Position numbers and translations under genes: made by a program. The notes beneath the pieces were generated by a model. The model did no database searches and was not told the DNA's origin. It was given only the letters and a program-made list of their open reading frames with translations. 64,000 nucleotides of DNA from Candidatus Nyctobacter psychrophilus. Its GTDB lineage: Bacteria; Vulcanimicrobiota; Vulcanimicrobiia; Vulcanimicrobiales; Vulcanimicrobiaceae. This document shows, one piece after another, positions 29,740 through 62,303 of this stretch. Position 1 is the stretch's first letter. The number at the start of each line of letters is the position of its first letter. The stretch lies in NCBI GenBank assembly GCA_014305025.1, contig JACRTY010000021.1, positions 124,001 through 188,000 on the forward strand, in the 5' to 3' direction.

Positions 29740-30364
29740 TGTCTTCGCCCTGGGAGCCGATGGCACGCTTAAAAAGCTTTCTCATACCGCCGCTAAACAC
29801 GGCGTTGTGATGACCCCGAATCAGCGGCCTTGAACGTGAACCTTCACGGACCAAGCGGCCGTTTTGACACCGTTGTCGAAATCGGTATAAAGATCACGTG
29901 CAGCGCTCCGTATGATGCCACCCGAATGCTGCGTACCATCTCCGTGAATTTCTTGCGAGCCGGCACTGGACGTCGCGGATGAACGCACTTTCAGATCGGC
30001 AAAGTGGCGCCCGTCAAAACTGACGCGCACGTGCGAGGCATCTACTGCTACCGCGCTCGCGACAGTCGGCCCCGTTGGGACCAGCCTTTCGACGCGGCCC
30101 TTGCTGAGCATATTAGGAGTGTAGCGGGCCAAGGCGAACGCCTGTTCGGTGATGAGCGAAGGTGTTAAAGCGCTCCGCGCTAGATTCGGGACGCTCTGCC
30201 GTGCGGCGTGGCTCAAGGAACGCTGGGAAGTACGCGCCGCGCCGCAATTTTGGGACCGCAGCTCGACTGAGCCAGCGCGCGTCTCCCGACCAACGAAGAA
30301 GGAGAGCTCACGGATTCCGACGATTCTGAGGATCACATTAGACTCAGGAATAGAAGAGGGAACC
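29740..30364. other. Sparse region between ligase and accessory island
   Basis: This 625-bp stretch has no strongly supported gene. It holds one weak minus-strand frame (listed separately) and the leader of the secreted protein that starts at 30365. I saw no tRNA, clear terminator or attachment-site repeat. It marks the change from GC-rich ligase coding sequence to the more A/T-containing island. Confidence 0.5.
29821..30111 (-). CDS. Hypothetical protein, doubtful
   Basis: A 96-residue frame from an ATG, with mixed composition and a few beta-like stretches ('DASHVRVSFDGRHFADLKV', 'AAWSVKVHVQG'), so it could be a small secreted or cell-surface beta protein fragment. The frame continues upstream to 30336 without an obvious ribosome site, and there is no signal peptide at either start. 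I recognise no family. Base composition is close to its neighbours. It may be a remnant at the island edge or not a gene. Confidence 0.35.
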   Translation of the reverse strand: MLSKGRVERLVPTGPTVASAVAVDASHVRVSFDGRHFADLKVRSSATSSAGSQEIHGDGTQHSGGIIRSAARDLYTDFDNGVKTAAWSVKVHVQGR

Positions 30365-31525
30365 GTGCGTTTTTCGTCAGTGCGTTATCTGATAGCGTCA
30401 ACCGTAGCGTTCTCGGTAGCGGCATCCTCTGCGTTTGCCATGCCGATACAGCGTGTCCCCATGAGGCCTTCTCACCATACGTCAGGAATCGTCCCACCGT
30501 ACCGAGCAGTTCCCGACATCTCGCTTCCGCCGATTAGCGATTCGCAGATCGATCAGCACATATCCCAGGCCCTCCCGCAAGGCGAGAGAGCACTGATGCG
30601 CACCATTATGCTGCAACTGCCGGAGAACAAAAGATATGATGTTATTTATTACGCGTTAGACGGTACGGTCCATGCAAATTATCCAGCGCTCTTGAAAACG
30701 ACGGTGGTCTATCAACCGAGCAAATTCGACTATCGTCAAGGAATCGGCTCAGATGGCAGCAGCATCGTGCTGGCGCCAACGACATCGATTCCCAAGGCGT
30801 TATATAGTTGCAGCAATGTTCCGCAGAGCACCTCTACGGGTGGCTATCGCGAGGTTGCGTCGGTATGCAACACCCCATACGAATTCACGCACGTTTTCTT
30901 GCCTTGTAACTCAAATAACGAAATCTACTTACACTATCCCTTGAGCGAAGGGGTATACATTTACGGCGGTGGTTTTAGCGGCAACGGCAATGCCGTTGAC
31001 GCGGGGATGCAATTTAGCAACACGTATGATGACTGGGCGCTTTTCGTAAGTGTAAACAAGCATCAAGTAAGTAATTATACTCGCTTTCAATGCAACCAGA
31101 CGGTCTCGCTAGAATTTTATCCGTTAAGTTCTCAGACTTTGGTGCTGTATGGTACCGGATACACTGATTCTGGGCAGTTCATGCAAATCTCGCAGACATA
31201 TGCGGTAAGCGCTTCGCAGGGATGGTCGGACTCCTGCGGAGGGTGCGTAGTGAAACGCGTTACTTCGCTGGCTCAAAATAACTTCTTGAATTTTAAGGAC
31301 GGCTCATTTGCCGGCATCGACGTGTACGCAAACCCCTTAATAGCTTGGTCGAACTCGTTGGTAGGTTATTGGAATGGGAGGTATCCGCCCCTATACAACG
31401 CCGCCACGTGGACAAACTACTACACCGGCGGCTACTACTCTTATCCGTCAAACGACCCAAGCCGTGTGATTGTTAACTTTGTGAACGGTGGACAAGAGAC
31501 CGACGGACTGTTTTACCACGGCTGA
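30365..31525 (+). CDS. Secreted protein of unknown family, horizontally acquired look
   Basis: A 386-residue protein with a clear signal peptide ('YLIASTVAFSVAASSAFA', residues about 7-24) cut before MPIQRV. The GTG start has a good AGAGGG ribosome site five bases upstream. The mature part begins with a proline-rich 40-residue segment, then a domain rich in Tyr, Asn, Ser and Gly, with several cysteines (pairs near 152/168 and 178, and 'DSCGGCV' near 297) suited to disulfides. No motif names a function. Codons are distinctly more A/T-ending (AAT, TAT, TTA) than in neighbours, so it looks imported. An extracellular binding or toxin-like role is possible but unsupported. Confidence 0.7.
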   Translation: MRFSSVRYLIASTVAFSVAASSAFAMPIQRVPMRPSHHTSGIVPPYRAVPDISLPPISDSQIDQHISQALPQGERALMRTIMLQLPENKRYDVIYYALDGTVHANYPALLKTTVVYQPSKFDYRQGIGSDGSSIVLAPTTSIPKALYSCSNVPQSTSTGGYREVASVCNTPYEFTHVFLPCNSNNEIYLHYPLSEGVYIYGGGFSGNGNAVDAGMQFSNTYDDWALFVSVNKHQVSNYTRFQCNQTVSLEFYPLSSQTLVLYGTGYTDSGQFMQISQTYAVSASQGWSDSCGGCVVKRVTSLAQNNFLNFKDGSFAGIDVYANPLIAWSNSLVGYWNGRYPPLYNAATWTNYYTGGYYSYPSNDPSRVIVNFVNGGQETDGLFYHG

Positions 31526-31574
31526 GCTGCGCCGGCTGAGCGAAGCATTGGCCGGGCCATCGCGTCCAAGATAA

Positions 31575-32132
31575 ATGGGAGGGCATCTGTTCGCGTTGGT
31601 GCTGGGTCTCATGCAGCACTACGGCGTCGGCGCAGGTATTTCGCAAACCATCTGCTACCCACAGATCTTTGGCAGCGACACTAAGCTCTTTCAAAGGCGG
31701 TATCCGGTCGCGGATACCGCCTTTGACCAGAAGCGGTACGCGGAAGCCTTTCGGGCCTATTACCAGTACTTCTTTTGCTTGGGCGGTCCGACCGAGACCG
31801 TAAATCCCCGCGCTGAGGATTCCGGTGCTGCCGCATTACTTAGAACTGGTATAGCCGCGGCCATGGAAGGCAAATATCGGCTTGCCATAGCGGAAACCCA
31901 GGCTGCAACGGCACGGGATACTCAGTTTGGAGAGGCTCAGTTCATCCTCGGCGATCTGTTTTTCGTCGTTCGAAAATGCGAAGCGGCGCGGGCTGCTTGG
32001 CGTGATGCCGAAGTGAACCCAGGATACCCTGTCCCACCTGACGCTGACACCAGACAGCCTTACGCATCCGCAGCTTCGGAAATGCTTAGCAGGCACTGCA
32101 CCAAAGCTGCAGCCACAACGAGGCCTTGCTGA
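31575..32132 (+). CDS. TPR-like protein of unknown function
   Basis: A 185-residue frame. From about residue 45 it has helical repeats in the TPR style: 'AFDQKRYAEAFRAYYQYFF', 'AAAMEGKYRLAIAETQAA' and 'AQFILGDLFFVVRKCEAA', each with the small-large-aromatic spacing of tetratricopeptide repeats. The first 40 residues are weaker and cover a perfect 15-bp hairpin, so the true start may lie further in. There is no signal peptide. It follows the secreted protein on the same strand in the lower-GC island, with about 50 bp between them. It is probably a protein-interaction adaptor. Confidence 0.5.
   Translation: MGGHLFALVLGLMQHYGVGAGISQTICYPQIFGSDTKLFQRRYPVADTAFDQKRYAEAFRAYYQYFFCLGGPTETVNPRAEDSGAAALLRTGIAAAMEGKYRLAIAETQAATARDTQFGEAQFILGDLFFVVRKCEAARAAWRDAEVNPGYPVPPDADTRQPYASAASEMLSRHCTKAAATTRPC
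31692..31725. repeat. Perfect 15-bp inverted repeat with four-base loop
   Basis: CAAAGGCGGTATCCG at 31692-31706 is exactly complementary to 31711-31725, with GTCG as the loop. The hairpin is GC-rich in the middle, ends in CTTTG, and looks like a rho-independent terminator with a short T-run on the plus strand and an equivalent one (CTTTG) on the minus strand. It sits inside the N-terminal part of the TPR-like frame, which is odd for coding DNA and casts doubt on that start. It may end transcription of the upstream secreted-protein gene. Confidence 0.6.
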
Positions 32133-53069: not shown

Positions 53070-53228
53070 CTGAAACGCCGGCGCACCGCAGGCGGTAAAC
53101 GTGCGGAGGATCACAATGCCGCGCTCATTCTCGCGCTCGTCGTCGTTGCGCTCTATGGCGTCAATTTCTTGCGCGCGTACATTCGTCGCCGGCGCGGTTC
53201 CCATGGGCTTGTTGCCAAAATCCTCTAA
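53070..53228 (+). CDS. Possible small membrane protein after the NUDIX gene
   Basis: In the same frame as the NUDIX gene, six bases after its TAG stop, runs a 52-residue segment: a basic start, one hydrophobic stretch 'AALILALVVVALYGVNFL', and a basic tail 'RAYIRRRRGSHGLVAKIL'. This is a convincing single-helix membrane protein by pattern, but the only start is CTG at 53070. It may instead be a tail of the NUDIX protein made by stop-codon readthrough, or a mutated fusion. The evidence is composition only. Confidence 0.35.
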   Translation: MKRRRTAGGKRAEDHNAALILALVVVALYGVNFLRAYIRRRRGSHGLVAKIL

Positions 53229-53317
53229 AAAGGTTATAAAGGTAACAACTACCTGGCGATGACGAACCGACCGTCGCCAGACGGAACGGTTCGCGGAAAG
53301 GATGACTACCAAAAATA

Positions 53318-53587
53318 ATGGCAGTCAAGAAGACTTCAACCCGCAAGAAATCAACGGCAAAACGGACGTCGGCGCGTAAGGGAACGGGCCGCAAGAAAAC
53401 CGCCGGAACCACGGCGCGTAAGAAAACCACGCGTAAGACCGGCGCTCGCAAGACCACCCGCAAGAAGTCGACGGCGAAAAAGACCGCCGGACGCAAGAAA
53501 ACGGTCCGCAAGGCCGGCGCTCGCAAGACGACGGCCCGCAAGACCACCCGCAAAACGACACGTCGTAAGGTCGCCAAAAAAGCCTAA
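53318..53587 (+). CDS. Histone H1-like lysine/arginine-rich protein
   Basis: An 89-residue protein made almost wholly of K, R, T, A, S and G in short repeats such as 'ARKTTRK', 'RKKT' and 'GARKTT'. There are no acidic residues and no aromatic residues, so it is strongly positive. It resembles the tails of bacterial histone H1-like DNA-binding proteins (HctB and AlgP types), which compact DNA or modulate transcription. No folded domain is visible. The ATG follows ACCAAAAATA with no clear ribosome site; an ATG at 53302 with GGAAAGG upstream opens a different frame of 25 codons. A strong terminator follows 11 bp after the stop. Confidence 0.75.
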   Translation: MAVKKTSTRKKSTAKRTSARKGTGRKKTAGTTARKKTTRKTGARKTTRKKSTAKKTAGRKKTVRKAGARKTTARKTTRKTTRRKVAKKA

Positions 53588-53634: not shown

Positions 53635-54444
53635 TTATGGCGCGATCAGTGCGGCGAAACGCGCCAGGTCGTCGTCGCGGCGCACCCGCAAGCGCGGCAA
53701 GGCGTATGGCCGCTCCAAACCCTCGACGTCGCCGGGCATCTCGGTAAAGGCCGCCCTCATGCCGATCTCGCGCATGACCGACACGGTCGTCGCATCGTAT
53801 TGCCCGGAGGGATACGCGTACGTCGTCGGCGCGGGGCCACCGAGATAGCGCGTGAAGCGTTCCATGCACCCGGCGGCTTCACGTTCCTGACCCGCACGGT
53901 CGAGCTTCGCGAGGTCGAGGTGGAACGTGCCGTGACAGGCGACTTCCATACCGGCGCCACGCAGCGCGCGCATCTGTTGCCAGCTTAGATGATGCGGCGT
54001 GCCGATGAAGCCGCTGGAAACGTAGAACGTGCCGCGCGCACCGTACTCGCGCAGTAGCGGTAACGCCGTGGTTGCCGCGTCATCGTAGCCGTCATCGAAG
54101 GTGAGCACGACGATGTTACGCGGCCGCTCATGGCGGCCCAGCCGCGCAACGAGATCATGTGCGGTGATGGCAGCGATGTGCCGCTCGCGCAGATAGCGCA
54201 ATTGCGCGGCGAACGCACCGGGGGCGATGGTCAGATCGCGGCCGACGGCATCGCGCGGGATGTCGGCATCGACACGGTGGTACATCAGCACGGGAACGCC
54301 GGGCCAATGGCCGGTCATCGCGTGCGTGGCCGAGGTCGCTGCGCGTGGGTGCGTCGGCTCGTCCGCGCCGCCGCAGGCCGTCGAAGACGCGAACGCCAGC
54401 GCGACAGACCAGAGCACGCGGCGTACCGTGAAGCCGGCGCTCAC
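53635..54444 (-). CDS. Polysaccharide deacetylase (NodB/CE4), exported
   Basis: A 269-residue CE4 deacetylase. The N-terminus is a signal peptide with a possible lipobox ('SSTAC', Cys about 24). Motif 1 is 'LTFDDGYDD' near 110-118, with the catalytic and metal Asp. Motif 2 is 'ACHGTFHLDL' near 167-176, with two His ligands. Later motifs are 'YAYPSGQYD' near 210 and 'AAFTEMPGD' near 235. Such enzymes strip acetyl groups from chitin-like, peptidoglycan or exopolysaccharide sugars. The start is GTG, overlapping the TGA of the upstream glycosidase (GTGA), so it is coupled to the phosphodiester-glycosidase genes and probably shares their substrate. Confidence 0.9.
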   Translation of the reverse strand: MSAGFTVRRVLWSVALAFASSTACGGADEPTHPRAATSATHAMTGHWPGVPVLMYHRVDADIPRDAVGRDLTIAPGAFAAQLRYLRERHIAAITAHDLVARLGRHERPRNIVVLTFDDGYDDAATTALPLLREYGARGTFYVSSGFIGTPHHLSWQQMRALRGAGMEVACHGTFHLDLAKLDRAGQEREAAGCMERFTRYLGGPAPTTYAYPSGQYDATTVSVMREIGMRAAFTEMPGDVEGLERPYALPRLRVRRDDDLARFAALIAP

Positions 54445-56420
54445 GGCGTGCCCGCGACCACGACGCTCGGATTACGAAAGCCGAGCGTACCGCGCGCGGG
54501 CGCACTCGCGGCGATTGCCCCCGCAGTGCCGACCGGCGGCACGACGTATAAAGACGAGAGGCGCACCGGCGGGTTGAGATCGGCCGGTACGGCGATCGTG
54601 CGCGTTCGCCAGCCCGTCCAGTCAACGTTCTTCGCGATAGTCAGCGCCCGGCGTTCACCGAACCGATTGACGAACGCAGCACGAACCGTTGCGCCCCCGC
54701 CGTCGCCGTTTACGTCGACCGAGAACTGTAACGGTTCACCCGGCAAAACATAACGCACATCCGCGGTTGCGATCCGGCGTGTGCCCGAGAGATCGTACAC
54801 GAGCGTGAGTTGCGGCTCGAAGAGCGGTAACGCGATCCGCCGGCTTCCGACGTGAAGGGTCATGTCCGTGCGCAGTCCACCTGCGCGTGCGACGATCCGT
54901 GCATCGCGATTGCTCGCGCGATACACGCCCGCTTCGGTAAACGCGCCGCGATCGGCGCTCCACTGCACGCGATTCCCCAGTTGCACGACGGCACCCGACG
55001 CATCGTAGCCCGTCGCGCCAAGATGCACCGTGCCACCCGGGTCGACGGCGCGCTCGTCGTGTTGGATGTCCAGTCGCGCGAGCCGTTCGACCACACGGAT
55101 CGGCACCCGCGCTACCAAGCCGCGCGCGTGCAGCGCGACTTCGCCGGACTCGGGCCCGGCTTGTAGCACTTCACTCGGTGCAGAAGCCAGCAGATGACCG
55201 GCAGCATCGACGACGGCAAGCCGTACCGGAACGCCGGCACCCGACAACGCGACGATCGACGACGGCCGGGCTACGAGCATCGCCGGCGGACCGAGCGGTG
55301 CATCGCTGTACGCGAACAATCCGTCCGCTACGGGCCGCTCTGAGCCGTCGCTTGGCGATCCCAAGACCTTCGGCATCCCGTCGCCGAGTTGGCGCGCGAC
55401 CAGCGTGGCTGAGCCCCCGGAATCGAAGGCCATCGCGTCACTTGCGCCAAGTCCGCGCAACAGCGCCGCAAATTGGGGACGCGTCACCCCGATCGAGGTA
55501 GCGGCGTTACGTCCGTCGACGCTGACGAGAAGCAGCGTCTGCGCTGCCGTCGTTGCTGCGCCGGCAACGGGAAACCGCACGTTACGTTCTTCGGGCGCCG
55601 GCGCATTGGGATCGTCAACGGCGTGTCCGCCCTGGAGCAGCAACGGTCCACCGCCGAGGGCGCTGACGACATCGCTAAGCGGCGGCGTCGTCGTCATGGC
55701 GATCGTCACGCCATCACCCGGCGCAGGGGGCGGCGCGAGGGTCTGCGCCGCCGGACCGAGACCGAGCACGATTCCGTGCGCCGTCTGCGCGTCCGCCGGG
55801 CCGATCGCCGCAACGCGATACGCACCGGCAAGCTCAGCACCGTGAAGCGCATCGGCCGGCACTAGCGTCGCGGCGGTTACGCCGAAGGCCGCGCGCATCG
55901 CCCCGAACGCGGCTCCGAGCACGCTCGCGCCGCCCTGCGGCGGCCACTCGTCGACGCCGGTCAACGGAATGGTCGCTGCACCGTATTCCACCGTTCCGTT
56001 GAAACTGAAGGAATCGAAGTGAACGCTACGGTCGCGGCGTACGTCGAGCGCGACGCGTTGCGAGGGCGTGCGGAGCAACACGCCGTCACGCACCACGATG
56101 TTCAGCGGTTGGTTTGTTTGACCGATGTCGAAGTAGTCGCCGTTGATGCCCGCGACCGCGCCCGTGCGGCGCGCCATCGACGAGACCGTTTCGCCCGCTG
56201 AGATCAAGCGGTCGTGTGAGAGCACGACGCCAAGCCGTACGTTCGGCTCGCCAAGATCGAGGGCGACGACGTTGACGACGAGCGGCCCATCCGACGTGGT
56301 GAGCCGATAGGTAGCACGTCTCATGCCCGGGGCGAAGACTTCCTGCGTACGCGACTGCGCGATGACCAGCGGAAACGGCGCGGGCGGCGCGAGTTCCGCC
56401 GGAAGCGACGGTCCGATCAC
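54441..56420 (-). CDS. Phosphodiester glycosidase-family protein, no signal peptide
   Basis: A 659-residue protein with a NAGPA-type phosphodiester glycosidase domain (Pfam DUF2233 family). Marks are 'AGINGDYFDIGQTNQPLNIV' near 90-109 and 'AMAFDSGGSATLVARQLG' near 330-347. Residues about 380-659 are beta-rich, with an Ig-like segment (about 380-510) and a final sandwich (about 560-640). Human NAGPA removes GlcNAc from a phosphodiester, and bacterial relatives act on wall polymers such as teichoic-like or phospho-sugar links. Oddly, it begins 'MIGPSLPAELAPPAPFPL', proline-rich without any signal peptide, and its GTG overlaps the upstream stop. It may be a domain of the upstream protein lost by a frame change. 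Confidence 0.85.
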   Translation of the reverse strand: MIGPSLPAELAPPAPFPLVIAQSRTQEVFAPGMRRATYRLTTSDGPLVVNVVALDLGEPNVRLGVVLSHDRLISAGETVSSMARRTGAVAGINGDYFDIGQTNQPLNIVVRDGVLLRTPSQRVALDVRRDRSVHFDSFSFNGTVEYGAATIPLTGVDEWPPQGGASVLGAAFGAMRAAFGVTAATLVPADALHGAELAGAYRVAAIGPADAQTAHGIVLGLGPAAQTLAPPPAPGDGVTIAMTTTPPLSDVVSALGGGPLLLQGGHAVDDPNAPAPEERNVRFPVAGAATTAAQTLLLVSVDGRNAATSIGVTRPQFAALLRGLGASDAMAFDSGGSATLVARQLGDGMPKVLGSPSDGSERPVADGLFAYSDAPLGPPAMLVARPSSIVALSGAGVPVRLAVVDAAGHLLASAPSEVLQAGPESGEVALHARGLVARVPIRVVERLARLDIQHDERAVDPGGTVHLGATGYDASGAVVQLGNRVQWSADRGAFTEAGVYRASNRDARIVARAGGLRTDMTLHVGSRRIALPLFEPQLTLVYDLSGTRRIATADVRYVLPGEPLQFSVDVNGDGGGATVRAAFVNRFGERRALTIAKNVDWTGWRTRTIAVPADLNPPVRLSSLYVVPPVGTAGAIAASAPARGTLGFRNPSVVVAGTP

Positions 56421-58471
56421 GGCGACGGACGCGCTTCGGGAACCGGCGTCGGCACCTGCGCGGGTGCGACGACCGCGGGCAACGGCGCACTGCTATAGAG
56501 GAAGAGCCCGTCGGAGACCCAGCGTTCCGCGCTGTTGTCGGACGGTACGTTGCGGACGCTCGCATTGGCGTCGCCCGGCGCGCGCGACACGAGCGTAACG
56601 GAGCCGCCCGAGTCGAGCGCCATCGCGTCGACGCCGCCCAGACGCAACAACAGCCGCGCGAATTCCGGGCGCGTCATGCCGACGGAACGTTCGGGGTGGC
56701 GCCCGTCGACGGCAACGAACATCAAACGCCCGTCGAGCGTACGCACGAGTGCGATCACGGGCCAACGATAATTGCGTTCATCGGGCGCGGGAGCGTGCCG
56801 GTCTTCGAACCATGCACCGTTGCGGAGTAAGACGGGTCCACCGCCGATTCCGGCAACGACGTCGTCGACGTGCGGTTCGAGCGCATAGGTCACCGTCACG
56901 ACGTCGCCCGGCTTCGGCAGCGGCGTGCGCACGAGCGGACCGATGGCAATGCCGAAGCGCGGCGTCGTCGGCGCGTTCATCGGCACGACGTCGGTCACGC
57001 GAAAGCGCGTGCCGTTGCGGTCGCCCAGCGGCTGCAACGCGACGAACGTGCGCCCCGGCGATGCCGGCAACACCTTGCCGAACGCGGGCGTGATCACGCA
57101 CACGTCCCCCGGCGGCCAGTCGTTGACTTCCGTGATCGGCATGCTGCCCGCCGCGGTACGGACTTCGCCGCGGATGCGAAACTCCGCGATCGTGACCTGC
57201 TTGTTACGGTCGATCACCAAAGCCGCGCGGTCGGTCGGCCCGCGCACCAGCTCGCCATGACGCACGAGCATGCCCTGCGGTTGATACGTGCGTCCAATAT
57301 CAAAATAATCGCCGTTGACCCCGGCGACGGCACCCGTGCGCACGCTCATCGCCGAGGTTCGCTCGCCGCCGGAGATCACGTGATCTTCTGCAATCGCCGT
57401 ATCGAAGCGTAGCGTCGGTTCGGCCGGATCGACCGAGAGCAAACTGATGGCCAGCGGACCGTGATCGCTGCCAAGCGCGTATTGGGCGTACGCGAGGCCC
57501 GGAGCCGTCGCTTCAAGCGTGACCGAACGCAAGCGAGGCTCGTCTGCGATATGCGTCAACAAGGCGGTGAGGGCGTTCAAATCACGCACTCCGCCTGCGT
57601 GTTCGCCGAATAGGGCGTGTAGTTCGCCACCGAAGTTGAAGGGGACGCCGTCGAGGGTACCCACGATAGCCCGCGACCCGATGCCGTCTCCAGCGAACGA
57701 AACCTTTCCATGCAGCCCGCGCAGCTCGTGTGGCGCGGTCCCCGCTGCGGCGTCAGCAGCGAGCGCGAGCGACGTATCATCGAGCCGGGCCTGTGCGTGA
57801 ACCGCCGTACCGCCGTCGACCTCGACGTCGCGCAGCCAACCGCCTTGCAACTCCAACGTTGCGTCATCGGGTAGAATCCCGGCCAGCGGTTGCAGCGGCA
57901 CGGCAGCCGCCGTCCACACGCTCGGGCCACCCGCGGCATGGCCTGTAACGGGATACCGGTTTGTCAGCTCGTCCAGCGCCATCGTAACGTCGTAACGTGG
58001 GGGCTGCCCGGCCCTCAGATTGACGTCGGCTTCGACGCCGGCGAAGGTCAGTGCGGGGACGGGGACCGCCCCGGCGGTCACGACCAGCGTACCGTCACGC
58101 ACCGCTAAGCGCGTCGCGCCGCCTGCCAGGGCCAAATGCGTTTCTTCTTGGGCGTGATAGCGAAGCGGCGCCACGACGATGTGCGGCTGCTCGAGCTCGA
58201 TCGTATCGCCGCTTGGGCCCAACGCTACATGGGCGCGAGGGGCGCTGGCAAAGAACGCGCCGTCGCCGGTCGAGGCCGTCATGTCGCGCAAGAGATAGCC
58301 GTCTTTGGTCCGCATCACGTCGCCGGCGCGGAACCGCAAACCCGTCGCGTGATCCGCGTACGCCAGGAAGGCGCAACTCTGGAGCTTGCCTGCGACGGCG
58401 AAACCGGCGGCGAGTGCAACGAGTGCAACGACGCCCACGAGGATCAGGCCACGGCGTCCGGATACCTTCAT
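56417..58471 (-). CDS. Membrane-anchored protein with AsmA-like region and phosphodiester glycosidase domain
   Basis: A 684-residue protein. An N-terminal membrane anchor ('RGLILVGVVALVALAAGFAVAG', about 7-28) is followed by about 300 residues of beta-rich sequence ('MRTKDGYLLRDMTASTGDG' near 53), resembling AsmA/DUF3971-type lipid-binding repeats. Then comes a phosphodiester glycosidase domain (about 360-660) with 'AGVNGDYFDIGRTYQPQG' near 385-402 and 'DAMALDSGGSVTLVSRAPGD' near 625-644. It ends in the proline-rich 'APAQVPTPVPEARPSP'. It is paralogous to the next gene over the glycosidase domain and translationally coupled to it (GTGA). It heads a three-gene run and is divergent from a second deacetylase-like gene, 45 bp away. 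Confidence 0.85.
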   Translation of the reverse strand: MKVSGRRGLILVGVVALVALAAGFAVAGKLQSCAFLAYADHATGLRFRAGDVMRTKDGYLLRDMTASTGDGAFFASAPRAHVALGPSGDTIELEQPHIVVAPLRYHAQEETHLALAGGATRLAVRDGTLVVTAGAVPVPALTFAGVEADVNLRAGQPPRYDVTMALDELTNRYPVTGHAAGGPSVWTAAAVPLQPLAGILPDDATLELQGGWLRDVEVDGGTAVHAQARLDDTSLALAADAAAGTAPHELRGLHGKVSFAGDGIGSRAIVGTLDGVPFNFGGELHALFGEHAGGVRDLNALTALLTHIADEPRLRSVTLEATAPGLAYAQYALGSDHGPLAISLLSVDPAEPTLRFDTAIAEDHVISGGERTSAMSVRTGAVAGVNGDYFDIGRTYQPQGMLVRHGELVRGPTDRAALVIDRNKQVTIAEFRIRGEVRTAAGSMPITEVNDWPPGDVCVITPAFGKVLPASPGRTFVALQPLGDRNGTRFRVTDVVPMNAPTTPRFGIAIGPLVRTPLPKPGDVVTVTYALEPHVDDVVAGIGGGPVLLRNGAWFEDRHAPAPDERNYRWPVIALVRTLDGRLMFVAVDGRHPERSVGMTRPEFARLLLRLGGVDAMALDSGGSVTLVSRAPGDANASVRNVPSDNSAERWVSDGLFLYSSAPLPAVVAPAQVPTPVPEARPSP

Positions 58472-58516
58472 CGACCACGGGGAGAGTGCGCGGCCGTCGG
58501 CGCAACACCCTTCGTC

Positions 58517-59296
58517 ATGCGGGCCCTTCGTTGTCTCATCGCTTGCGTCGCGGCGCTGTGCAGTTCGGTAACCGGGCTACGCGCCACGCCGAGCGGGCTA
58601 CCGCAGATCGCACCGCACGCACGCACGCCCTACATTGCCGTTCTGGTCTGGCACGACGTTCTGCCGTCCAAAGAGGTGTGGTTCGACACGACGGCTGCGC
58701 TCTTCGCGCACGAGCTCGATCAGATCGCAACCGGCGGGTTCCATGTCCTCAAGCTTGCGACGTTACGCGATCATCTCGTGCGCGGCACCGACGTCCCGCC
58801 GAAATCGCTCGTCCTGACGTTCGATGACAACGGGTCCGGCATTTATCGCTACGCGTACCCGCTGCTGCGCGCGCATCGCTTTCCGGCAACGCTCTTCGTG
58901 CACACCAACTACGTCGGTAAGACGACGAGCAAGCACCACAACACGTGGTCCCAACTGCACGAAATGATCGCTAGCGGACGCATCGACGTGCAAAGCCTCA
59001 CCGCCAACCACCCACCCGACCTCACCAAACTGAGCGATGCCGACGTCGTCCACGAGCTGCGCCTCTCGAAATTTTCGCTCGAACGACGCCTGGGGAAACC
59101 GGTCTACGCGCTCGTTTATCCGTACGACGCATACGACGATCGCGTCGCCCGGTTGGCCGCCGACAGCGGCTATACGCTCGGATTTACCGAAGACTGGGGA
59201 GCAGCCGGTGATTCATCGTCGCTGCTGGAGATCCACCGCTACTCGGTCCTCACGCGGTTCGATCAAGCCTTATCGGACGTCGCCGCGCATCGCTGA
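58517..59296 (+). CDS. Polysaccharide deacetylase-like protein with altered active site
   Basis: A 259-residue exported protein with a signal peptide ('CLIACVAALCSSVTGLRA', about 6-23). It follows the NodB layout but with changes: motif 1 reads 'LTFDDNGSG' rather than TFDDG, and the metal-His motif reads 'SLTANHPPDL', where the first His of H-x3-H is Leu. 'VYPYDAYDD' and 'GYTLGFTEDWG' keep the later family pattern. It may be a weak or non-catalytic binder. I start at ATG 58517, because the open frame upstream overlaps the divergent gene. Its start lies 45 bp from the start of the glycosidase gene, so both share a promoter region. Confidence 0.83.
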   Translation: MRALRCLIACVAALCSSVTGLRATPSGLPQIAPHARTPYIAVLVWHDVLPSKEVWFDTTAALFAHELDQIATGGFHVLKLATLRDHLVRGTDVPPKSLVLTFDDNGSGIYRYAYPLLRAHRFPATLFVHTNYVGKTTSKHHNTWSQLHEMIASGRIDVQSLTANHPPDLTKLSDADVVHELRLSKFSLERRLGKPVYALVYPYDAYDDRVARLAADSGYTLGFTEDWGAAGDSSSLLEIHRYSVLTRFDQALSDVAAHR

Positions 59297-60127
59297 ATTC
59301 CGCTGTCCCAAAGACTTTCCAACCTCTAGCGGCAAGCCTTGCAAACGCGGAAAGACGCGTGCCAGCACGGCTTGGCAGATGCGCGACGCAACGCGGGTGG
59401 GAACACCGGCATCACGCTCGACGCCGAACACGGTCGCGTGGGGAGCATGCGCCTGCAATGCTGCCGGCCCGTCGGAATAATAATAGGCGGCCAGGGAGTC
59501 GCGCGTCTCATCGGCCGGAAAGCGGAGACGGCGATAGCCATGAAAGGCGCGGTCGTGCACTTCCATGATGATGCACCGATTGAAACGCGGTTCGATCGTC
59601 CGCACGACGTGGGAACAATCCGCGTCCCACAGTTCGAGTTCTCCGCCCCAGGCAGGTACCCAATGCGGATTGAGATAGACGAGCACGTTTAGGCGACGAT
59701 AGCGCGTGGGATCGCTCGGATGGGTGTTGTGGTCGGCGTGCACATGAAGGTGGCTGCCGCGGGCCCCTTGGTGGACGCCGGCGCCGACGTTCTCGGGGTC
59801 CATTTGTGCGTCGCGCACACCCGTCAGCGTACGGAGCCAGTGCGTGAAGGGCGCCTCCCCGAGTTCGGAAAAGACGGCGCGCAGACTCGGCCCTAAGTGG
59901 GCTGTACCGACGTTGTAACGGCGCGCTTCCAATAACCAAGCCGCCGTTCTGGCAGCCCGCGCCAACGGAGGGAATTCGGCATGTATCGCCTGCGCCGCCG
60001 GCTCGGTTAGGAAATCGTCGATGACGATGTGACGGAATGGAACGGCCGCATCGAAGCGCGCACGCCAGCCGTCGACATCGGTTGCGAACCGCTCGACATT
60101 GAGAACCGACGTGAAAGCGCGGCTCAC
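59270..60127 (-). CDS. 2-oxoglutarate/Fe(II)-dependent oxygenase-like protein
   Basis: A 285-residue protein with the double-stranded beta-helix pattern of prolyl-4-hydroxylase-like oxygenases. The Fe ligands are likely the H-x-D in 'LHVHADHNTHP' near 136-146 and a distal His in 'AFHGYRRL' near 196, with the 2-oxoglutarate Arg soon after. 'RRLNVLVYLNPHWVPAWGGELELW' near 153-176 is the family core. The substrate is unknown. The GTG at 60127 is the probable start, though the frame is open to 60160. Its 3' end overlaps the convergent deacetylase-like gene by 27 bp. No signal peptide is present. Confidence 0.8.
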   Translation of the reverse strand: MSRAFTSVLNVERFATDVDGWRARFDAAVPFRHIVIDDFLTEPAAQAIHAEFPPLARAARTAAWLLEARRYNVGTAHLGPSLRAVFSELGEAPFTHWLRTLTGVRDAQMDPENVGAGVHQGARGSHLHVHADHNTHPSDPTRYRRLNVLVYLNPHWVPAWGGELELWDADCSHVVRTIEPRFNRCIIMEVHDRAFHGYRRLRFPADETRDSLAAYYYSDGPAALQAHAPHATVFGVERDAGVPTRVASRICQAVLARVFPRLQGLPLEVGKSLGQRNSAMRGDVR

Positions 60128-60217
60128 CGTAAGTGAGCCCCGTGTCCGACCATGCCTCACACGTTCGGAGGCCGCCCAAGCGCGCCTGGCGACCGACGCT
60201 TGGTGGTACCATAAGTC

Positions 60218-61036
60218 TCAGCGCCAGCAGGTCAGTGGTCTGGCTATCCCTGCTTTCCCGGTGGGCCGAAGGTGGTATGCGTCTTCGAGGGTGCGTAGCA
60301 CATCGTAGTGATCGATCCGTTCACCGTAGCGCCCAGGCCGTACCATCGGTCCAAACACGATGGTCGGGATGCTGTTGGCGGCATCGTATCCCTCGTCCCA
60401 GGTCAAAACGACGAGCGAGTCATGCGCGTTGGCCCACGTCACCAGCGGGGCGAGGCGCATGCGCAACCATGCGTCACCTTGAGCGATCGTTCCGTCGTGC
60501 ATGTCATCGTCGACGTCCGGAACGACGAATGCCACCGTAGGCAGCAGATCGTACAGAGACGGTAGGGCAGCGAATGCTCGAGCGTCGGCTGCCGGAACGT
60601 TGCTGAACGCGACCCACGGTGCGTGCTTGCGTGCATAGGTTCCGGCGGCGCACACCGGCGACCCGGTTGAGGGAAGCGCCTCGGCATAACCGATGAACGT
60701 TAGGTGCGCAGCGAGGAGTTCGCTCGCGAGGTTCGGCGCGTTCGCTGAGATACCGGTCGCGGGGCAGCCGTCGCCGTTGTCGTTGGTGACGCCGGCGAAC
60801 AAGGCGAGATAGTTCGGCAGGCTGGGGTGCGTCACGCCGTGCGCGTTCGTGAACAAGGCACCTTTTTTTGCGAGCGCATTGATGAAGGGAGCGGACTGGT
60901 TGCCCACGATCTCCGCCAGCGTCTTATTCTCTTCGACGATGACGATCGTATGCGCCGGGCGCGGAACACGCGCCGCCGCCGATACCGGAAATAAGCACGC
61001 GGCGAGCACAACAAACGACAGCACAAGACGCGTCAT
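60218..61036 (-). CDS. Secreted phosphoesterase (acid phosphatase/phospholipase C-like)
   Basis: A 272-residue exported enzyme of the phosphoesterase family (Pfam PF04185). A signal peptide 'LVLSFVVLAACLFPVSAAA' (about 4-22) precedes the opening 'HTIVIVEENKTLAEIVGN', the family's usual start with the metal Glu-Asn. 'THPSLPNYLALFAG' near 68-81 has the probable nucleophile Ser/Thr region, and the distal block is 'VVLTWDEGYD' near 208-217. Relatives hydrolyse phosphomonoesters or phospholipids outside the cell. The ATG at 61036 is chosen because the signal peptide begins there; an upstream start at 61078 is possible. It belongs to the envelope-modifying cluster only by position. Confidence 0.85.
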   Translation of the reverse strand: MTRLVLSFVVLAACLFPVSAAARVPRPAHTIVIVEENKTLAEIVGNQSAPFINALAKKGALFTNAHGVTHPSLPNYLALFAGVTNDNGDGCPATGISANAPNLASELLAAHLTFIGYAEALPSTGSPVCAAGTYARKHAPWVAFSNVPAADARAFAALPSLYDLLPTVAFVVPDVDDDMHDGTIAQGDAWLRMRLAPLVTWANAHDSLVVLTWDEGYDAANSIPTIVFGPMVRPGRYGERIDHYDVLRTLEDAYHLRPTGKAGIARPLTCWR

Positions 61037-61093
61037 CGGCGCGACGTTCGAATGGCAGGCCGCGACCTCCGCTTTCATGGGGAAACGCTTGAG

Positions 61094-61249
61094 CTACTGC
61101 GTTCCCTCTTCGAGCGCGGCTTTCACATCGCCGAGATCTTCCGCGTTACCGTCATCGTCGACGTTGGGCTCACCGGGGTACGCCTCGGTCTTACGCTGCG
61201 GTTCCAGGGCGTCGGTCTCGGCGTGCGTGCCGCCTGTCGCGTCGTTCAT
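61094..61249 (-). CDS. Tiny acidic protein, 51 residues
   Basis: From ATG 61249 the frame reads 'MNDATGGTHAETDALEPQRK', then a very acidic segment with 'PNVDDDGNAEDLGDVKAALEEG', ending in TAG. The start overlaps the TGA of the 77-residue gene as ATGA, so it is coupled to it. It has no Cys, no aromatic residue except one Tyr, and no hydrophobic core, so it is probably disordered. The family is unknown. Hydrophilic acidic proteins of this kind sometimes serve in stress protection, which is only a suggestion. Confidence 0.55.
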   Translation of the reverse strand: MNDATGGTHAETDALEPQRKTEAYPGEPNVDDDGNAEDLGDVKAALEEGTQ

Positions 61250-61479
61250 CGGTCGGCGTCCTCTCTTGCATTTTGATCTTGCGCTTCGGCGATCCGGGCT
61301 TCTTCTACATCATCCGAAGCCGGATTGCGCATGCGGCTCGCCACCTCGTCTTCGGCGGTCACCCGTGCCGTTTCCGGTGAAAGGTTGAACGCGTTCCCCA
61401 AGATCGTCGTTTGATCGTCCACTTCTTCGCCGATGGTGCGCTCGCCGCCGTCGCGGCCGGTCTCCTTGCGATCATTCAT
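61246..61479 (-). CDS. Small acidic hydrophilic protein, 77 residues
   Basis: From ATG 61479 it reads 'MNDRKETGRDGGERTIGEEV', then 'TTILGNAFNLSPETARVTAEDEVASRM', ending in an acidic 'DDVEEARIAEAQDQNAREDAD' tail. It starts as ATGA with the stop of the dead acyltransferase and ends overlapping the next tiny gene. It has no signal peptide, membrane segment or cysteine. It shares the 'MND' start and acidic nature with its neighbour but no clear sequence repeat. It is probably a small disordered or partly helical protein; function unknown. Confidence 0.6.
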   Translation of the reverse strand: MNDRKETGRDGGERTIGEEVDDQTTILGNAFNLSPETARVTAEDEVASRMRNPASDDVEEARIAEAQDQNAREDADR

Positions 61480-62303
61480 GCAGGCAGCTTCTCCACATCG
61501 GCGCTCGGTGAATCCGGGGCTGCGTCCCGCGCCGCTAGCGCGGCCCAAACGACACGAAGATGCCGGGTACGCCAGCCGGCACGGGAGAACGCTTCCGCCC
61601 TCGCCGCCAGGTGCGCGAACTCCCACGCGAACGGACGCGCTCGCAGCAGCGGGCGCTCGATCGCGAACGTGATGAGCGACGCAACGCCGAGAGCGGCTGC
61701 CGCCGCCGCGAACGTAAACGCGAGACCCCAACCGGCGTCCGCGTGTTGATCGGCGCCGTGCCAGCCCGGGATGCGCCGCTCCAGCAGTGCGTGCGCGACG
61801 GCCGCATGCCACAGGTAGAGATTATATGAGTGCCTCGAGCCGTGAACATCCCCCACGCAAACAGATCCAGCGCTCCAGGCAATTGGTCGATCAAATGCAC
61901 GACGTCGTATGCGCCGTGCACGGCTGCGCGATAGACGTTGGCGATGACGACGAGGCCGAAGAACGTTGCGAGGGCATGTCGCCGCGCCGCCCATGCGAGC
62001 AGCGGAAAAAGCACGTACGAAGAGAGAATCTTGAGCGCACGGCGGTACGCAAACTCACCAGTAGTCGGTGCCGTCCGCCCGCCAAACCTAGCGCGCGCAT
62101 ACGGGTAGTACAAACAGAAACCACTGATGAATAAGAAGAGATCGACCCAGAGAAAACCGGCCTCCGGAATGGCCCCAAGTCGAGCGCGTGGCCAAAGGGT
62201 GCCACGGTCGCGGGCAGCCACGTGACCTGCCACAGGCAAACCACACGACCAGCGCCATCGCGATGGCGCGCAAACCGTCCAGCGGTTCCAGCCGTGCCTT
62301 CAT
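61476..62303 (-). pseudogene. Broken acyltransferase-3 family membrane protein
   Basis: Acyltransferase-3 (OafA-like) proteins of about 350-400 residues transfer acyl groups to surface sugars. Here 'MKARLEPLDGLRAIAMALVV' (the typical start) is followed by a frame change near 62235, another near 62195, then 'GFLWVDLFLFISGFCLYYPY' and helices to 'DLFAWGMFTARG'. Another frame change near 61855 joins directly to 'SYNLYLWHAAVAHALLE', the late family motif, so about 80-100 residues of the middle are missing. The tail to 61476 is in one frame. ATGA overlaps link it to the MFS gene before it and the acidic gene after it. It is dead. Confidence 0.78.

Follow-up and report, generated by a model that had tools for sequence, protein, structure and literature searches.

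The closest described relatives of the locus reported here are the deacetylase PplD of Streptococcus pyogenes, the vertebrate phosphodiester glycosidase NAGPA, and groove proteins such as TamB. PplD, whose structure is PDB entry 6dq3, has the metal ligands D168, H223 and H227, and its substrate is the N-acetylglucosamine (GlcNAc) whose 1-phosphodiester links a polysaccharide to peptidoglycan (excerpts of PMC8807736). In the literature drawn on (abstracts, and excerpts of PMC8807736, PMC10967932, PMC9758169, PMC12419801 and PMC11188070), bacterial NAGPA proteins appear in annotations and comparative studies only, with no functional test; within the same limits TamB is a lipid-transport protein, and the NAGPA passage of a paper mentioning both AsmA and NAGPA concerns other fusions. 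Here we describe a conserved block of five genes—PE, PDL, NAG1, NAG2 and CE4—in a 64,000-nucleotide stretch of the little-known soil bacterium Candidatus Nyctobacter psychrophilus (contig JACRTY010000021.1, positions 124,001 to 188,000; hereafter the window). One of its products, NAG1, has a new domain architecture: a TamB N-terminal module fused to a NAGPA domain. No published description of the block or of a TamB/AsmA-NAGPA fusion was found in the literature searched, with most subscription papers outside its reach.

Our favoured reading, to which we give a probability of about 0.45, is that the block is old, vertically inherited and probably operonic, and that it processes an envelope glycan in which an amino sugar is joined through a sugar-1-phosphodiester. 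The block is hosted by one Eremiobacterota/Vulcanimicrobiota family; the processing is best read as periplasmic and the glycan, presumably, as lipid-carried. The evidence for inheritance comes from 99 genomes of this family, in which NAG1, PDL, PE, CE4 and a 2-oxoglutarate (2OG)-dependent oxygenase-like protein were searched and orthologs were counted by score. The thresholds were E < 1e-80 for PDL (next match 3e-22), E < 1e-85 for PE (next match 4e-66) and E < 1e-55 for CE4 (scores around the cut 1.5e-59, 8e-57, 6e-54 and 2e-51); for NAG1, a match had to enter the N-terminal domain to be counted, that in G060 covering only the end of this domain (from residue 257) and that in G047 starting at 116.

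Orthologs of PDL, NAG1, CE4 and PE are carried by 18, 17, 19 and 18 genomes, respectively, and the carriers largely coincide: 17 are shared between PDL and NAG1, 16 between PDL and PE, 15 between NAG1 and PE, and 17 between NAG1 and CE4. PDL and NAG1 occur together in 17 genomes, PDL alone in one, NAG1 alone in none, and neither in 81 (p 3e-18, a value that ignores kinship, and the carriers tested lie in one clade)—co-occurrence statistics of the kind that an earlier sequence-only reading of the window had called for. In the one genome with PDL and no NAG1 (G097), PDL and PE lie close to the beginning of one contig and CE4 opens a second one, and NAG1 may lie in an assembly gap. The same reading had named a lack of conserved gene order beyond close strains as a finding that would refute its cluster; the 18 PDL carriers span 14 genera, the order is kept across genera, and by this test the cluster was not refuted. 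The whole order PE-PDL-NAG1-NAG2-CE4 is present in 10 of the 18 carriers (the window, G027, G029, G058, G059, G060, G063, G085, G086 and G093), the window copy having the 2OG gene inserted, and in G004, G062, G097 and G098 the order fits as far as contig ends allow. In the cultured type strain, Vulcanimicrobium alpinum WC8-2 (G086; 3,508,363 bases), the whole block lies at 1,627,252-1,633,755. PDL is 61-75% identical to the window copy, CE4 48-69% and PE, in the carriers that possess it, 54-69%; for NAG1 the figure is 49-70% in the catalytic part, and the N-terminal pieces aligned by tblastn reach only 27-41%. Among 149 phylum genomes, matches that reach the NAG1 N-terminal half are confined to this family (threshold 1e-30). 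In a scan of named genomes this half was matched in 8 of 47 loci (L003-L010), of which L004 and L007 are contigs of the family genomes G058 and G062.

The history of the block was followed on two trees. For rpoB, 40 stretches were taken from the 99 genomes, with frames chosen by similarity, and 38 rows were used; stretches of 14 of the 18 carriers were taken, of which those of G098 and G059 were too short to be used, and G004, G029, G062 and G063 were not included. All 12 carriers of this tree fall within one 17-row group (100/96), together with the non-carriers G003, G087, G090, G094 and G096. The carrier label needs 3 changes on the tree, against a mean of 10.4 in 500 shuffles, none of which was as low; the distribution fits one old gain and a few later losses, which is its simplest account. 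The second tree holds 68 NAGPA domains, without those of NAG2 in L009, L010 and L091; L008 and L093 are the same gene. On it NAG1 makes up one clade (100/100), whose 16 rows include one gene twice, and the carrier NAG2 forms one clade of 11 rows (97/90). A match to the NAG1 query is found in 95 of the 99 family genomes, mostly through the NAGPA domain, and outside the carriers the NAGPA homolog is a lone gene with a fixed neighbourhood in most of the loci compared. This lone NAG2 neighbourhood is largely fixed in 27 loci (L096, L098-L119 and L011-L014), except L101 and L014; by eye, its genes resemble what we take to be TolC/HlyD, nitrilase, beta-propeller, TldD/PmbA, TlpA and FolD.

In the window, the six genes of the 53635-61078 region are real, and the main family match of each of the six proteins exceeds its own Pfam cut-off (Table 1); in bits, the PF09992 scores are 91.3 for NAG1 and 83.6 for NAG2 (cut-off 25), and the PF04185 score of PE is 122.6 (cut-off 23). 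The sequence-only reading had placed here two NAGPA-type proteins, a CE4 deacetylase with a second deacetylase-like protein, a 2OG oxygenase-like gene and a phosphoesterase, and all of these are present; two gene boundaries need a remark. The second deacetylase lies in a longer open reading frame (ORF) listed from 58136, inside which the ATG at 58517 is the likeliest start, and the reading started PE at 61036, a start that begins with a signal-like segment in an ORF that here extends to 61078. The source genome (3.22 Mb, 58 contigs) has both of its NAGPA matches within this block. NAG1, NAG2 and CE4 lie head to tail on the minus strand with 4-base overlaps, and from these overlaps they are probably an operon.

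Table 1. Genes, domains and junctions of the block in the window (feature; coordinates; strand; basis)
CE4: NodB/CE4 deacetylase, 269 residues	53635..54444	-	PF01522, E 9e-26
NAG2 stop / CE4 start overlap, 4 bases	54441..54444	-	ORF coordinates
NAG2: phosphodiester glycosidase, 659 residues	54441..56420	-	PF09992, E 2.5e-23
NAG1 stop / NAG2 start overlap, GTGA	56417..56420	-	read from sequence
NAG1: TamB-like groove + NAGPA domain, 684 residues	56417..58471	-	PF09992, E 1e-25
NAG1 catalytic domain, residues 324-661	56489..57502	-	NAGPA fold + motifs
NAG1 groove domain, residues 46-285	57617..58336	-	homologous to TamB N-terminal part (hhalign, fold)
PDL: NodB-like, signal-like N-terminus, divergently transcribed from NAG1	58517..59296	+	PF01522, E 1.4e-21 (longer ORF)
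2OG-Fe(II) oxygenase-like gene, flanked by PDL and PE	59270..60160	-	PF13640, E 2.8e-15
PE: phosphoesterase, signal-like N-terminus	60218..61078	-	PF04185, E 2.8e-35

Export was judged by the hydropathy of the first 45 residues on a simple scale. NAG1 (3.26), PE (2.92) and PDL (2.58) have clear signal-like segments; CE4 (1.97) is weaker and probably exported; in NAG2 (1.48) and the 2OG protein (1.19) such a segment is absent. The claim that most of the proteins are exported thus fits the first three, is weaker for CE4, and does not extend to NAG2 or the 2OG protein.

NAG1 is composed of a membrane helix (residues 6-43), a TamB-like groove (about 46-285) and a NAGPA catalytic domain (about 324-661). 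AlphaFold2 models, with a mean predicted local distance difference test score of 78 and, for the N-terminal part, 80, show a membrane helix that leads into a series of long beta strands, followed by the NAGPA domain. In fold comparison, the modelled C-terminal half matches BACOVA_00430 (3ohg; Z 23.9, 260 aligned) and guinea-pig NAGPA (6pku; Z 21.6, 228 aligned, root-mean-square deviation (rmsd) 2.7), and the motifs NGDYFD, GGGP, DGR, GM and DSGGS are invariant in 9 of 9 NAG1 sequences. Pfam finds nothing in NAG1 besides NAGPA, and the TamB domain PF04357 in none of 9 members. The N-terminal model matches TamB best (Z 9.3, with 181 aligned and rmsd 8.1, then 8.7 and 7.1), and the next rows are LPD-3 (7.9), Vps13 (7.7) and Atg2 (7.0 and 6.9)—these proteins take all seven best places, and LPD-3 is the top Foldseek row (E 2e-4). 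LPD-3, Vps13 and Atg2 are lipid carriers. LptDE, level with an outer-membrane barrel, follows at Z 5.9, with beta-barrel rows at 5.9 and below. These Z values are modest for the groove fold, and families absent from the fold tables may also be related; the TamB assignment is carried by the sequence comparison.

That comparison began from two long ORFs, in G043 and G089, whose N-termini the NAG1 query weakly matches and whose proteins carry PF04357 (E 4e-37 and 6e-29), at 66 and 47 bits far under the NCBIfam TamB equivalog cut-off of 825. A profile of nine NAG1 N-termini aligns by hhalign with the first of these proteins at 99.1% (E 4e-19, 296 columns, residues 29-347) and with the second at 97.3% (E 2e-11, 291 columns, residues 27-365); a single BLASTP comparison of the NAG1 N-terminus with a TamB protein gives 26% over 174 residues (E 1e-9). 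TamB matches occur in 95 of the 99 family genomes, and because full TamB genes are present in all 18 carriers as well, the module in NAG1 is an extra copy. From these alignments we classify NAG1 as a fusion of the N-terminal module of TamB with a NAGPA domain; since the C-terminal TamB domain is missing, it is not itself a TamB. As a separate observation, many of the genomes searched for TamB (L174 and L175 among them) match it at more than one place, in several cases in separate long ORFs, which may mean that the family has duplicated TamB itself.

The two deacetylases differ in their active sites. In the pair (DEACETYLASES), every metal ligand is present in CE4, whose motifs LTFDDGY, CHGTFHLDL and AYPSGQYD are canonical by the definitions in excerpts of PMC10967932; the metal triad of motif 1 Asp-Asp and motif 2 His...His is kept in 15 of 15 aligned orthologs. 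In PDL, motif 2 reads S(L/Q)TANHP(P/E)DL in 15 of 15, and its first metal His is replaced by Leu (13/15) or Gln (2/15), while TFDD, the second His (in NHP(P/E)DL) and an N-terminal VxVWH are retained. The changed active site that had been reported for the second deacetylase is therefore fixed across its orthologs, and a complete site must be denied it. With its Asp-His-His triad incomplete, PDL is best classified as NodB-like rather than as an active CE4 enzyme; because conservation around the broken site is strong, we favour a binding or regulatory role, or a substitute ligand, for which the conserved His in the stretch (K/R/A/H)H(N/T/S)(T/S)W is a candidate. The closest solved relative of both proteins is PplD 6dq3 (E 4e-20 for CE4 and 1.6e-17 for PDL, for which IcaB and PgaB-type structures come next), and the best NCBIfam match of both is PgaB, at 61.2 bits for CE4 and 72.9 for PDL against an equivalog cut-off of 321.9. 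In PE, the residues EEN, HPSxPNY, DMH and DEG are invariant in 12 of 12 sequences. Searches for solved relatives of PE gave only E 0.74-0.79 with phmmer and, with a profile, only 4upk (E 0.0037, best stretch i-Evalue 0.22).

From these parts the favoured scheme can be assembled. A sugar-1-phosphodiester is proposed as substrate because NAG1 and NAG2 are of the NAGPA family, an amino sugar because the deacetylase is PplD-like, and a lipid carrier because of the TamB module. NAG1 would sit in the inner membrane, where its TamB-derived groove would grip a lipid-carried glycan or glycolipid in transit by the lipid part, and hydrolysis of the phosphodiester to a free sugar and a phosphomonoester would fall to the NAGPA domain on the periplasmic side. 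PE would then take off the remaining phosphate, and CE4 would deacetylate the amino sugar; PDL, with its incomplete metal site, might bind the glycan or CE4 instead of catalysing, and NAG2 would be co-produced with NAG1 and act together with it. The sequence-only reading had proposed the trimming of a phosphate-bearing surface polymer: a periplasmic role on phosphoglycans does fit the families and most N-termini, but in place of a surface polymer, a lipid-carried molecule at the inner membrane is suggested at least equally well by the TamB-like half of NAG1. V. alpinum WC8-2 is Gram-negative with an outer membrane covered by lipopolysaccharide, and its polar lipids are mostly unidentified, including four glycolipids (excerpts of PMC9758169). 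A bolder version seems doubtful to us: NAG1 would represent a new enzyme type, an inner-membrane phosphodiester glycosidase fed by its built-in TamB groove, cleaving sugar-1-phosphates off polyprenyl-phosphate or glycolipid molecules bound for the outer membrane. It would be served by two dedicated deacetylases, by a phosphatase, and by NAG2 as a partner that gave up its signal peptide for coupling to NAG1. Stealth/GNPTAB is the partner that makes the NAGPA substrate; Stealth (PF11380) was found in 0 of the 99 family genomes, and in none of 14 control genomes.

The resemblance of both deacetylases to PplD as nearest solved relative also suggests a different substrate, the linkage unit of a glycopolymer held on peptidoglycan by a GlcNAc-1-phosphodiester made by LytR-CpsA-Psr (LCP) proteins. 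CE4 would deacetylate the GlcNAc, making the bond durable, NAG1 and NAG2 would cut it, and PE would remove the phosphate. The bond described in excerpts of PMC8807736 belongs to the class cleaved by NAGPA, and LCP domains occur in 94 of the 99 family genomes and a match to the NAG1 query in 95. This account is nevertheless unlikely: it leaves the TamB-like half of NAG1 without a role, the LCP distribution does not track the block, and the similarity to PplD is moderate and common to PgaB/IcaB-type enzymes. LCP domains are thus widespread in a family whose cultured member is Gram-negative.

Hydrolytic families could also serve nutrition: in poor soils, secreted enzymes might release sugar and phosphate from teichoic acids, phosphoglycans or nucleotides of foreign origin. 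Reported habitats of the phylum include oligotrophic sites (excerpts of PMC9758169). We consider such scavenging somewhat less probable than linkage-unit turnover, given that NAG1 is membrane-anchored with a TamB-like half, that NAG2 has no visible export signal, and that the conserved block has no transporter. The family of PE, PF04185, which we take to be a broad phosphatase family, was counted in favour of scavenging.

NAG2 itself raises an export puzzle. The last 269 residues of the protein have no Pfam match. In 13 loci read, linked NAG2 begins at or just after the NAG1 stop: the junction is GTGA in the window, L003, L004, L006, L007, L088, L089 and L091 and TAGTG in L009 and L010, with short gaps in L005 and L008 and, in L092, a gap of 15 to about 110 bases depending on the start. 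No signal-like segment precedes the conserved LxPPxPFP motif of linked NAG2 (11-residue hydropathy 0.8-1.8 in 10 scored copies; L003, L005 and L091 were judged by reading), and export of NAG2 is not supported for the block copy, which has no signal peptide. Unlinked NAG2 does have such a segment, with hydropathy of 2.1-3.2 in 15 lone and 2 split copies (L095 and L097); the scored copies do not include L003, L101, L102, L104, L105, L108-L110, L112, L117, L011 and L012, of which 11 are lone loci and in which the motif was not found. The gap between the two groups is small on this simple scale (1.83 vs 2.13), and linked NAG2 also lacks the 12 or more residues where a signal would lie.

One solution would be that NAG1 and NAG2 were formerly one polypeptide and that frameshift or readthrough still yields some of the fused form, carrying NAG2 out. 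By reading, the start of linked NAG2 falls, in 13 of 13 loci, near the position at which unlinked copies have their mature N-terminus; a Pro-rich tail ends NAG1 in most loci, and 10 of 13 have NAG2 in the -1 frame. We still hold this very improbable, as L008 and L092 have a frame relation of 0 and L005 one of +1, and the stop codons differ. A programmed frameshift fusing the two was rejected, with no conserved frame and no slippery run seen. The weakest candidate, modification of an exopolysaccharide like poly-N-acetylglucosamine (PNAG) with CE4 and PDL as counterparts of PgaB and IcaB, can draw on PgaB as best NCBIfam match of both, on IcaB and PgaB-type structures as next solved relatives of PDL, and on sub-threshold PgaC/IcaA-like glycosyltransferases in 99 of 99 genomes (the top scores, 182 and 178 bits, being those of the carriers G004 and G086), but is unlikely, and the least probable of all, with the PgaC/IcaA cut-off of 422 bits reached in 0 of 99 genomes and exceeded by 1 of 14 control genomes, with PgaB scores far under the equivalog cut-off and with, to our knowledge, no phosphodiester in PNAG.

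Several points weigh against the reading that we favour. The substrate of the block enzymes is deduced from their families; a groove and TamB kinship do not establish lipid binding; the C-terminal TamB domain is missing from NAG1; and a block NAG2 without signal peptide leaves a wholly periplasmic scheme incomplete. The block is also not uniform: G074 lacks NAG2, G047 has only PDL and NAG1 linked, and G045 and G044 carry PE-PDL-NAG1 and NAG2-CE4 at two separate places. CE4 has no clear score gap between orthologs and other homologs (6e-54 and 2e-51 come next), and PE belongs to a broad family, with near homologs in G055 and G091, which are without PDL.

The 2OG oxygenase, which had been counted as part of the set, was rejected as a member of the block and is a local insertion. 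Relatives of the protein occur in 15 of the 99 family genomes, window included, and the gene was matched in none of the other block loci compared; it is present in 4 of 18 PDL carriers and 11 of 81 other genomes (Fisher p 0.47), hence no co-occurrence. Because the flanking genes vary, we take the block to be bounded at PE and CE4; CMK-like, major facilitator superfamily (MFS), NUDIX and alpha/beta hydrolase genes and a repetitive ORF recur in a few loci. The repetitive ORF adjoins CE4 at 53161-53577 in the window, with no Pfam match and an uncertain coding strand, and sequence resembling it flanks the block in L003, L004, L006, L007, L087 and L090. Between PE and the MFS gene, overlapping frames at 61246-62244 (minus strand) with a partial PF01757 match (22 bits vs a cut-off of 31) look like a broken or mis-sequenced acyltransferase gene. 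In other genomes, a glycoside hydrolase family 38 alpha-mannosidase gene follows CE4 in G059, with a copy 83% alike in G060 (L091:12895-15360 and L092:13200-15650), and an ORF with a weak PMT-like match (L003:6565-8238, G063; 19.4 bits vs a cut-off of 22.7) overlaps the PE ORF by 4 bases. Elsewhere in the window, G+C falls to 0.543 at 30001-32000, with about 0.65 around.

Among known systems, PplD, the de-N-acetylase of a GlcNAc-1-phosphate linkage unit, resembles CE4 and PDL in its NodB2-like order and N-terminal VxxxH motif, and its site is a phosphodiester-linked amino sugar (excerpts of PMC8807736)—a likeness to the block by sequence similarity only. It differs in its Gram-positive host, in the metal ligand that PDL lacks out of three, and in that those excerpts mention no NAGPA partner. 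The PgaB/IcaB deacetylases share the NodB2-like deacetylase domain of CE4 and PDL; their systems differ in that no PgaC exceeds its cut-off in the 99 genomes and the block has no PNAG operon genes. The vertebrate uncovering enzyme NAGPA and the DUF2233 proteins BACOVA_00430, Slr0280 and BPSS2145 share the catalytic fold and motifs of NAG1, and are related to NAG2 by sequence family; among the matches listed, none of these structures reaches the TamB-like half, and here two paralogs stand in tandem with deacetylases. With the whole block in the cultured type strain of the phylum, there is a handle on the envelope glycans of this group. Finally, TamB, AsmA-like and Vps13 groove proteins have the membrane helix and groove fold in common with NAG1, and the TamB sequence homology comes from the same bacterial family. 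NAG1 differs from TamB in having only some 290 of its residues, with a glycosidase in place of the C-terminal TamB domain—a fusion through which a single protein would couple lipid transport to glycan cleavage, and a link that can be tested.

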